Shown in pieces: positions 25,301 to 27,574 of a stretch of DNA of 35,897 nt. The notes under the pieces are model-generated. The model saw only the letters and a program-made list of their open reading frames with translations. It searched no databases and was not told where the DNA came from. Origin of the DNA: Bacteroidota bacterium (GTDB taxonomy: Bacteria > Bacteroidota > Bacteroidia > NS11-12g > UBA955). The stretch is from positions 1 to 35,897 of the forward strand of contig JAGFIU010000038.1 in assembly GCA_024103355.1 (NCBI GenBank), given 5' to 3'. Each line of letters opens with the position of its first letter. Within the stretch, counting starts at the first letter, position 1. Both the position numbers and the translations under genes were made by a program.

Positions 25301-25771
25301 ATGGTAGAATCATTTACACAATTTATGGGAGATGAATTGTTTTTGATTCAAGACATTGTAAATTACGATGTTATACCTCATGAAGGTGGCAATAAGTATA
25401 AATACCTCAACCTTTTTGATTTCCCTGAAGACAAATGCATTCAGGAACAATTCAAAAACGACTTTATTGAACTGCATAAAATCATCAGCAAAAGCGGGCA
25501 TACTATGGATTTGGAAGGTATGTGTTTGGTGAATCTGTATCAAGTTAAAGGTATTAGATTACAAAATCTCCTGAATGTTTTTTCTCCAAAGTATATTTCT
25601 TTTTGGGGCGCAGACCCTCAAAAACTTGGTTTAAAAATCTTACCTATGAAAGGAATTATTTGGAATGGAATTAAGATTCTGAGACTTGACAGTTTGGATA
25701 AAACCTTTGGAGATACTGCTGTTAAAGCACAAACGGAACAATTTTTAAAATACCTTTTTGGAATAAAATGA
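25301..25771 (+). CDS. Unrecognised conserved-looking protein, 156 residues
   Basis: The ATG at 25301 gives 156 residues; a TTG 27 nt upstream is less likely. I do not recognise the family. It is a soluble protein without signal or membrane segments. An N-terminal helical part (ESFTQFMGDELFLIQDIV) leads to an acidic mid-region. A C-terminal half has hydrophobic strand-like stretches (LLNVFSPKYISFWGADPQKLGLKIL) and a final helix AQTEQFLKYLFG. Its stop TGA overlaps the rdgB start (ATGA), so the two are translationally coupled. Coupling to a nucleotide-pool sanitising enzyme might suggest a DNA metabolism role. The shape vaguely recalls the replication clamp-loader psi subunit, but that is only a guess. 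No -7 element is evident upstream. Confidence 0.8.
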   Translation: MVESFTQFMGDELFLIQDIVNYDVIPHEGGNKYKYLNLFDFPEDKCIQEQFKNDFIELHKIISKSGHTMDLEGMCLVNLYQVKGIRLQNLLNVFSPKYISFWGADPQKLGLKILPMKGIIWNGIKILRLDSLDKTFGDTAVKAQTEQFLKYLFGIK

Positions 25772-26352
25772 GTTTGATTTTTGCAACAGGTAATATCCAC
25801 AAGATTGAAGAAGCTTCAGAAATTCTTAAAATTCAAATTTTACCGGCAACCAAAGAATGGCTGATGAATACTCCTGAAGAAACAGGAAAATCTTTTGAAG
25901 AGAATGCATTGATTAAAGCAAAATATATTTTTGATACCACCGGTTATGCTTGTTTTGCTGAAGACAGCGGTTTGTGCGTTGAGGCATTGAACGGTACTCC
26001 GGGTATCTATTCTGCCAGGTTTGCAGGAGAAAACGCAACAGATGTTGCTAACAATCTTTTATTATTGGATAAATTAAAAGGAAGAGAAGACCGCAGAGCT
26101 TATTTCTGTGCAATAATCTGTTATATTGATGCACAGGGATACAGCTTTTTTGAAGGTAGGATTTATGGTAAGATTGCTGTAGAAATTAGCGGTAAAACGG
26201 GATTTGGGTATGACCCTTTATTTATACCGGATGGTTATGATTCGACATTTGCTGAATTAGGTAAAACAATCAAAAATAGTATTAGCCACAGAAAAATGGC
26301 TTTGGAAAAGTTTAAAGAGTTTTTGAATTCAAATTCTTTAAAACAGGCTTGA
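25768..26352 (+). CDS. rdgB: XTP/dITP diphosphatase (RdgB/HAM1)
   Basis: 194 residues of the HAM1 family. The start FATGNIHKIEEASEIL is the nucleotide-binding motif, followed by TGKSFEENALIKAKYIF, CFAEDSGLCVEALNGTPGIYSARFAG with the catalytic Asp, GKTGFGYDPLFIPDGYDSTFAELG, and the closing ISHRKMALEKF. It hydrolyses dITP, ITP and XTP to monophosphates and keeps deaminated purines out of DNA and RNA. The start codon overlaps the preceding stop by ATGA. Length is typical. Confidence 0.97.
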   Translation: MSLIFATGNIHKIEEASEILKIQILPATKEWLMNTPEETGKSFEENALIKAKYIFDTTGYACFAEDSGLCVEALNGTPGIYSARFAGENATDVANNLLLLDKLKGREDRRAYFCAIICYIDAQGYSFFEGRIYGKIAVEISGKTGFGYDPLFIPDGYDSTFAELGKTIKNSISHRKMALEKFKEFLNSNSLKQA

Positions 26353-26359
26353 ATTGCCG

Positions 26360-26367
26360 TAGTTTTG
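26360..26367 (+). promoter_or_regulatory. Promoter -7 element for the second QueA-type gene
   Basis: TAGTTTTG followed by C in the 22-nt gap after rdgB, 7 nt before the first candidate TTG start. Confidence 0.45.
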
Positions 26368-26374
26368 CAACGTT

Positions 26375-27574
26375 TTGACAAAAAATTCTTTTTCATTGAA
26401 TCCTCTTTCTCTTTCTCAGTTTGAATACGACTTACCGGATAGCAGAATTGCTAAATTCCCGTTGCCGGAAAGGGATGCTTCAAAATTGCTTTTTTATAAC
26501 AAGGGAACAATTTCTCATCACCACTTTAGTGAAATACCGGAGCTTTTGCCCGCTCCATCCTCTTTGCTGTTTAATAAGTCTAAAGTTGTACCGGCTCGTC
26601 TGGAATTTTTTAAAGATAGCGGAACCCGAATTGAGGTTTTTTTGCTCGAACCTTTTGAATCTGAATACAACAAAACCTTTGGGAGTATTGATGAGGTTAA
26701 GTTTAAAACTTTGGTGGGAAATAAAAAGCGATGGAAAGAGGAACAAATACTTGTTAAAAATATCGGAGATATACGCTTGCAAGCAAGCTGGCTCAACAGA
26801 GCTGAGAATATTGTAAAACTCTCTTGGAATCAATCTTTACCTTTTTCTGGAGTATTGGAACATGTCGGGAAACTTCCTCTGCCACCGTACCTGAACAGAG
26901 ATGCCGAGCCTTCAGACTACAAAACCTATCAAACTGTATTTGCTGAAGAAGAGGGTGCAGTGGCAGCACCAACTGCCGGGCTGCATTTTACCGATAGGGT
27001 ACTTGCACAACTCAAGCAAAAAAGAATTTTTACACGTAAAATGACTTTGCATGTTTCTGCCGGAACATTTCTACCGGTTACTGTGGATAATGTTTTAGAC
27101 CATCCGATGCACAATGAGGTTTTCTATTTTGATAAAGAGGATGTGCATTATTTATTTGAATCAGATTTCTTGATTCCGGTTGGCACTACTTCACTTAGAA
27201 TGGCAGAAAGCTTGTATTGGATGGGAGTAGCATTATTGAAAAATAACGATGATTCTTTTAGTCTTGATAAACTTTTTCCGTATTCCGTAAATACAGAAAA
27301 TTTGAATAAAAATGAGGTAAAAGAGTGCTTGCTTTCATATTTGAAATCTCATCCTCAAAAAAGGGTGAGAGCCGCAACCCGTTTAATGATAGTCCCCGCT
27401 TATCAACCGCAACTTTGCAAGGGATTAATAACCAATTTTCACCAACCATCATCTACACTGATTATGCTGGTTGCATCTTTGATTGGTGAGAACTGGCGCA
27501 AAGTTTACCAAACAGCTATGGATAAAAACTACAGGTTTCTTAGCTATGGTGACAGTAGTTTATTAGTTTGGTAA
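26375..27574 (+). CDS. Second QueA-type protein (long paralogue, no ATG start)
   Basis: Up to 399 residues clearly related to QueA: FEYDLPDSRIAKFPLPERDASKLLFYN, LLFNKSKVVPARLEFF, YQTVFAEEEGAVAAPTAGLHFTD, KMTLHVSAGTFLPVTVDNVLDHPMHNE, VGTTSLRMAESLYW, LITNFHQPSSTLIMLVASLIGENW and YRFLSYGDSSLLVW. An insertion of about 40 residues (FSLDKLFPYSVNTENLN...SYLKSHPQKRVRAATRL) lies before the last block. It keeps HxxAGTFxPV better than the first paralogue. No ATG precedes the first conserved motif: TTG at 26375 or TTG at 26396 must be used. This long family is recurrent in Bacteroidota beside a standard QueA; its substrate is not established. It lies 22 nt after rdgB. Confidence 0.9.
   Translation: MTKNSFSLNPLSLSQFEYDLPDSRIAKFPLPERDASKLLFYNKGTISHHHFSEIPELLPAPSSLLFNKSKVVPARLEFFKDSGTRIEVFLLEPFESEYNKTFGSIDEVKFKTLVGNKKRWKEEQILVKNIGDIRLQASWLNRAENIVKLSWNQSLPFSGVLEHVGKLPLPPYLNRDAEPSDYKTYQTVFAEEEGAVAAPTAGLHFTDRVLAQLKQKRIFTRKMTLHVSAGTFLPVTVDNVLDHPMHNEVFYFDKEDVHYLFESDFLIPVGTTSLRMAESLYWMGVALLKNNDDSFSLDKLFPYSVNTENLNKNEVKECLLSYLKSHPQKRVRAATRLMIVPAYQPQLCKGLITNFHQPSSTLIMLVASLIGENWRKVYQTAMDKNYRFLSYGDSSLLVW

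Follow-up and report, generated by a model that had tools for sequence, protein, structure and literature searches.

A pair of QueA-family genes on one contig

The window (the whole 35,897-nucleotide stretch of DNA that was analyzed) contains two genes of the QueA family, a long gene encoding 399 residues and a short gene on the other strand (Table 1). A genome-wide profile search of the 2.3-Mb genome (G000) with PF02547 matched exactly these two genes. Both matches cover the whole model, with 291 bits for the long gene and 407 bits for the short gene, and these family scores rule out chance as the source of the similarity. The starts are separated by 19.2 kb, in line with the original prediction of two QueA-type genes about 20 kb apart, and the long protein has 51 more residues than its paralogue, where about 50 had been proposed. 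The motif HxxAGTFxPV, thought to be confined to the long paralogue, is indeed present there as HVSAGTFLPV and reads otherwise in the short protein; the extra block said to precede the C-terminal NFHQPSSTLIML motif was located between GTTSLRMAES and NFHQPSSTLIML.

Table 1. Features of the QueA-family locus in the window.
Feature	Coordinates	Strand	Basis
Short QueA paralogue, 348 aa	6152..7198	-	PF02547 407 bits, NF001140 405 bits; 11/52 sites changed
Ham1/RdgB-type non-canonical purine NTP pyrophosphatase	25768..26352	+	PF01725 213 bits
Long QueA paralogue, predicted epoxyqueuosine (oQ) synthase	26375..27574	+	PF02547, TIGR00113, 0/52 sites changed, QueA fold
TTG start codon of long gene	26375..26377	+	Conserved in sister genome G001
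Insert of long clade, residues about 284-330	27224..27364	+	Extended helix after GTTSxRxxESLYWxG, PY-containing segment, second helix

The ham1 gene lies 22 bases upstream of the long queA gene, and it directly adjoins or is fused to long queA at all 21 further loci of family f1 that were inspected (L096-L116; the window not counted). In two g6 genomes Ham1/RdgB and long QueA form a single open reading frame (L101:4449-6287 in G006, 613 codons; L114 in G021, 604 codons), and in a third g6 species (G016, L109) the two genes occupy overlapping open frames. The profile matches in one of the two fusions place HAM1 at residues 7-198 and QueA from residue 214.

As originally proposed, the long gene has no ATG ahead of its first conserved motif: the frame holds TTG codons at 26375 and 26396 and is closed upstream by a TAG at 26360. 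Inspection of the frame ruled out an overlooked ATG. In G001, a sister genome of the same genus, the TTG equivalent to 26375 is the only ATG, GTG or TTG in the open frame ahead of the first motif, and we therefore prefer 26375 over 26396. Relatives of the long gene outside the genus mostly have an ATG near that position. Just before the TTG, at 26360-26367, is a TAnnTTTG-like box (TAGTTTTG), also found in G001, which resembles the Bacteroidota -7 element; inspection by eye found no matching upstream element.

The long gene retains the residues typical of the family

The long protein scores 276.5 bits against the curated equivalog model TIGR00113 (cut-off 267.45) and 310.7 bits against NF001140, below the cut-off of 324. 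Its counterpart in G001 likewise exceeds the TIGR00113 cut-off only, and the long proteins of Bacteroides finegoldii and Parabacteroides distasonis exceed both QueA cut-offs.

Conserved sites were compared using two lists, with residue numbers following E. coli QueA. A column entered the 52-site list if it was conserved in 95% or more of 96 long proteins and 85% or more of 15 other QueA proteins; the 66-site list was drawn up from those 15 non-long proteins only. These 15 are E. coli QueA, eight named records and six second copies from families f17 and f23 (Sulfurovum, which is partial, two distant plasmid homologues and L181 were left out). Dropped ahead of alignment were L069 (a long gene with an in-frame TAG), L001, L002, L065, L095 and a duplicate of L013; L272, a 71-aa fragment, gave no alignment row. 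None of the 52 sites is changed in the long protein, a low count that arises partly by construction since long-clade conservation is a criterion of that list; on the 66-site list, which is free of this, six sites are changed and 60 are kept. S339, T214, T183, H229, T258 and T259 are retained in all 96 long rows.

Structure models were built from a six-sequence alignment (mean pLDDT 72), and their insert and loops are read no further than the helix assignments given here. The long protein is predicted to adopt the QueA fold, with Z of 24.0 both to 1vky_B (273 aligned residues, rmsd 6.2) and to 1wdi (270 aligned residues, rmsd 9.1). The insert comprises about 43 residues, of which LYWxG and the PY-containing segment are conserved best (Y284 in 84%, G287 in 90% and Y306 in 82% of the 96 long rows). 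The distance from GTT to NFH has a median of 85 residues in these 96 proteins versus 42 in 130 proteins without the insert, and the model places helices at residues 271-289 and 312-325. Because the residues typical of the family are kept, the long gene most likely makes epoxyqueuosine.

Long and short QueA form separate clades and are usually retained together

When 296 genomes of the phylum were searched with the long protein, 60 of them, that of the window included, gave a match of at least 225 bits covering most of the protein; no other match exceeded 166 bits. Phylogeny had been proposed as a check on whether both paralogues group with classical QueA. It separates the two: in a 94-row tree (L099 excluded), 41 long proteins fall on one side of a branch with SH-aLRT support of 99, and 38 short proteins form another clade with support of 100. 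The short clade branches among QueA proteins of other phyla in this quick search with a midpoint root, by which the true root is not established. For a second tree, of 104 rows, large families were thinned.

Among the 45 genomes of the window's order that are at least 95% complete, with gene fragments counted as present, 42 carry both genes, two carry only the long gene (G008, 95% complete; G012, 99% complete) and one carries only the short gene (G032, 99% complete). The short gene was also present in all 30 long-bearing genomes searched for it. Tgt and QueG were both found in all 38 genomes searched, comprising the window's genome (Tgt, 3.8e-153; QueG, 3.1e-100) and 37 relatives, with G008, G012 and G032 among them. 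Retention of Tgt and QueG in G008 and G012 is as expected if the long gene alone suffices for epoxyqueuosine. Two observations elsewhere in the phylum bear on pathway content. G152 (f4, 100% complete) has Tgt and both QueA genes and gave no QueG or QueH match; epoxyqueuosine may be the end product in this genome, or another reductase may act. G193 (f34, 99% complete) has Tgt and gave no match to the long QueA protein.

An origin as phage or plasmid cargo was rejected on three scans. Viral contigs held no long relative and one short relative. Phage-collection records gave 22 matches, of which those listed are at most 36% identical and none is noted as the insert-bearing type. Plasmid records gave 54 matches, of which 40 were listed; among the matches listed, four are of the long type, all from Bacteroidota. 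Two plasmid homologues are distant. L189:5995-7020, on plasmid pRmeGR4a of Sinorhizobium meliloti GR4, is 25% identical to the long protein and lies directly ahead of a small gene, two radical SAM genes and a diaminopimelate decarboxylase gene, an arrangement that may reflect recruitment of QueA to a natural-product pathway. L188:7998-9044, on plasmid pSaLI10 of Streptococcus salivarius, is very distant (23% identical), has lost the MHxE and GTF motifs and lies near thymidylate synthase, PqqD-family and CYTH genes.

The original prediction was that the long gene may use a different acceptor or reaction. A new ribosyl transfer by the long paralogue to another acceptor, with the short paralogue remaining the oQ synthase, would fit its separate clade, its long branches, the conserved insert and QueA profile scores lower than those of the short protein. 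We nevertheless regard it as very improbable: all 52 family sites are kept, the TIGR00113 cut-off is passed (and NF001140 just missed), both long-only genomes retain Tgt and QueG, and it is residues of the short protein, not of the long one, that correlate with a second QueA in the genome and, in three genomes, with a missing Tgt (see below).

The short gene is altered yet highly conserved

The short protein of the window lies above both equivalog cut-offs (NF001140, 405.2 bits; TIGR00113, 362.3 bits), and its model is predicted to have the QueA fold, with Z of 27.7 to 1wdi. It is changed at R70H, P154R, A181P, V210L, T214S, F215S, P217E, H229D, T258S, T259S and S339C on the 52-site list, and at 13 of the 66 sites on the independent list. 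It lacks GTFxPV, GTTS and SYGD, and in its relatives within the order some or all of the three motifs are altered. In the first alignment MHxE is carried by every one of the 92 long rows, whereas D replaces H in 95% of the 60 short rows; short rows added later have E, Y or H at this position (H in four two-copy genomes and in two genomes of family f35). Two short-clade proteins of f35 (L249 and L250, from G369 and G371) have MHSE within a VEDLTKHRM context and appear from their sequences to be intermediate between classical and MDSE-type QueA. Nineteen positions are near-invariant across all 244 alignment rows, those of altered short proteins included.

The short protein is more conserved than the long protein in all 496 genome pairs of the order that were compared (190/190 within f1, 240/240 between f1 and f2, 66/66 within f2); for the pair G000-G001, dS is saturated and yields no dN/dS ratio. 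No in-frame stop was found inside the short matches listed. The slower change in every pair, together with the lack of internal stops, rules out a pseudogene or decaying gene.

Twenty stretches were inspected for conserved neighbors, 19 around a short gene and one an arbitrary stretch of G012, which has no short gene. Of the 19 short-gene stretches, 16 had QueA among the open reading frames picked; it was missed in L275, L286 and L290, where it is probably hidden by longer overlapping frames. An ispD-like gene, named by eye, is present in six of the 20 stretches, from distant families of the phylum (L273 of G184, L274, L287, L289, L290 and L292). Genes resembling uvrB and permeases, also named by eye (a permease relative in the window was matched to Pfam), occur in four of the 20 stretches each. 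Across the 20 stretches no telling neighbor pointed to a second role of the short gene.

Alteration of the short gene tracks a second QueA

We compared 124 short genes from across the phylum according to whether the genome carries another QueA gene, a second QueA being called from match counts in f15 and f21 and checked by sequence in f17 and f23. Of 38 one-copy genomes 35 keep S339, versus 20 of 86 two-copy genomes; for T214 the counts are 34 of 38 versus 30 of 86. The one-copy exceptions at S339 are G032, the Tgt-less G184 (see below) and G013, which is 84% complete and was counted as one-copy in these site counts and excluded from the paired test. Family medians of the number of changed sites differ between 24 two-copy and 21 one-copy groups (Mann-Whitney p 2e-5, with five families appearing in both lists and the three exceptions counted).

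A phylogenetically paired test gave eight independent pairs on supported branches, of which on average 4.2 lie in the expected direction, 0.1 in the opposite direction and 3.7 show no difference. This result is not significant (median sign-test p 0.125), and its threshold of at least eight changes was set after the data had been seen.

Of six altered groups, all six have changes at S339, five at T214 and four at T183, versus 0, 1 and 0 of 46 single-copy short proteins, a contrast that leans toward the pattern since the 46 were picked without G013, G032, G184 and the altered f35 genomes. S339 and T214 are both kept in the two-copy families f4 (7/7), f5, f11, f21, f23, f33 and f36 and in two of four members of f10.

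These data bear on the view that each paralogue is an epoxyqueuosine synthase, the work being divided between them according to tRNA, growth condition or expression, with the altered short residues being tolerated substitutions. Such a division would accommodate the reciprocal losses (long only in G008 and G012, short only in G032, all with Tgt and QueG), the near-canonical short gene of several two-copy families and the 19 positions that stay near-invariant even in altered short proteins. It does not readily explain why S339, T214, T183 and T258, near-fixed in most single-copy short proteins, are repeatedly altered beside a second QueA or where Tgt is missing, or why the short gene is under purifying selection in three genomes with no detectable Tgt. 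We consider it rather unlikely, though a serious alternative.

Short genes persist in genomes with no Tgt match

Three genomes (G184, G232 and G236) belong to genus g99, which we take to be Salinibacter-like, in family f35. None of the three gave a match to Tgt in a search that found Tgt in 10 other genomes and in 14 of 14 controls, and G184 gave no match to QueG or QueH. The sole QueA-family gene of each is of the short type and open throughout, with 15, 15 and 17 of the 52 sites changed and new motifs in common. The short clade is thus not restricted to genomes in which Tgt is detected, of which the window's is one. Pairwise dN/dS among the three genes is 0.014 (dS 0.09), 0.065 (dS 0.52) and 0.083 (dS 0.42), indicating purifying selection. 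Tgt may have been lost from g99 recently, although G184 and G236 are separated by a dS of 0.52.

Elsewhere in f35 the short gene ranges widely. One to six sites are changed in five other genera and likewise in the g99 members G361 and G365. G354 (67% complete) has 12 changes, four of them gaps, and G356 (56% complete) has 10. Seven more g99 members are altered: G359 and G360 (seven sites each), G364 (eight), G366 (12), G367 (13), G363 (15) and G358 (16). Among these single-copy short proteins, T183, T214 and S339 are all altered in G358, G363, G366 and G367, only T183 and T214 in G359 and G360, and S339 and T183 in G364 and G356. The Tgt search within g99 covered G184, G232 and G236, and the altered short genes of the other f35 genomes neither support nor refute the model given below.

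Eukaryotic TGT is a pair of one catalytic and one non-catalytic subunit. By analogy, the short paralogue might be a non-catalytic tRNA-binding partner of a catalytic long QueA. An arrangement of this kind would be in keeping with the near-universal co-retention of short with long (30/30 long-bearing genomes; 42/45 in the order) and with a presumed active site that is altered in a protein of high overall conservation. The long-only genomes G008 and G012 and the Salinibacter-like genomes, which have neither Tgt nor a long gene, would each need another explanation, and we find a partnership improbable.

A model for the two paralogues

The reading we favor, at a probability of roughly 0.55, is that the long gene is the oQ synthase of the cell and that the short family serves, in addition, a role independent of queuosine. 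The earlier suggestion that the two genes may differ in function is supported by their co-retention and by their sharply different constraint; its other half, that the long gene is the deviant one, is not supported, the deviant being the short gene.

The long enzyme would transfer the ribosyl group of SAM, with isomerization, onto preQ1 at tRNA position 34 of GUN anticodons, acting between Tgt and QueG with classical QueA chemistry, and its insert would lengthen one helix and add another on an otherwise ordinary QueA fold. The ancestral short enzyme would have been bifunctional, combining oQ synthesis with a function independent of Tgt. As the sole QueA, a short gene would perform both jobs and keep the classical residues. 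Acquisition of a second QueA (the long gene, or a canonical copy in f17 and f23) or loss of Tgt would free the short gene from oQ synthesis; hydroxyl and loop residues (S339, T214, T183 and T258) would then be lost, residues tied to oQ would drift or be retuned, and the gene would be kept for its other role. Judged from the sequences, a bifunctional ancestor offers the simplest account of the patterns. The clades, co-retention, residue patterns, selection and missing Tgt matches are observations, from which the chemistry of either protein and the second role itself are inferred.

The more specific proposal is a tentative one, which we hold at somewhat less than even odds: that the short Bacteroidota clade has a second, queuosine-independent, SAM-linked function, under strong selection even without Tgt, and sheds S339, T214, T183 and T258 where another QueA makes oQ, so that these residues mark oQ chemistry. 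As G008 and G012 have no short gene, any second role would be dispensable.

Counter to the favored reading, the one QueA gene of G032, which also carries Tgt and QueG, is an altered short gene. This short gene may still serve the queuosine pathway, or the long gene may fall within an assembly gap. Our confidence in the favored reading is moderate because of G032, the other altered f35 genomes and the weak paired test.

The retention or loss of the same residues, depending on whether oQ synthesis is needed, provides a natural series that points to candidate catalytic residues. If a queuosine-independent role exists in the short clade, the name queA is wrong for many Bacteroidota genes that bear it, and predicting queuosine synthesis from the presence of any QueA is unsafe. 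A genetic contrast is at hand in Bacteroides, which has both genes, and in the Salinibacter-like genus, which apparently has the short gene only, with no Tgt found in the three species searched.

Comparison with known QueA proteins

The QueA fold was described in a 2005 survey (PMC1282579). A 2023 review notes that no substrate is present in the QueA structures from T. maritima and B. subtilis and that it is not clear how the enzyme binds SAM and tRNA (PMC10491745). Two genomic surveys take the presence of QueA as a mark of the pathway, with no mention of two types in the excerpts available (PMC6593275, PMC11130926). Among titles and abstract openings of the open-licence literature, no description of two QueA types was found.

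Compared with classical QueA (TIGR00113, PF02547; E. coli b0405; PDB 1vky, 1yy3 and 1wdi), the long gene shares the predicted fold, a full-length profile match and 52 of 52 residues, but differs in its insert of about 43 residues between GTTSxRxxES and the TxxxxP/NFH block and in belonging to a separate Bacteroidota clade. Its C-terminus reads SYGDSSLL, whereas seven of nine QueA rows from other phyla read S(Y/F)GD(A/S)M. Two named proteins, B. finegoldii WP_055278651.1 and P. distasonis WP_010182051.1, belong to the same clade and carry the insert; both are recorded as 'S-adenosylmethionine:tRNA ribosyltransferase-isomerase' with no gene symbol. The long gene of the window encodes a protein about 41% identical to these and differs from them in its TTG start and its position behind ham1. 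The B. finegoldii protein annotated as queA, WP_022275809.1, belongs instead to the clade of the window's short gene and is likewise altered at 11 of the 52 sites, reading GNF and TYGD where the short protein of the window reads GSS and CYGD.
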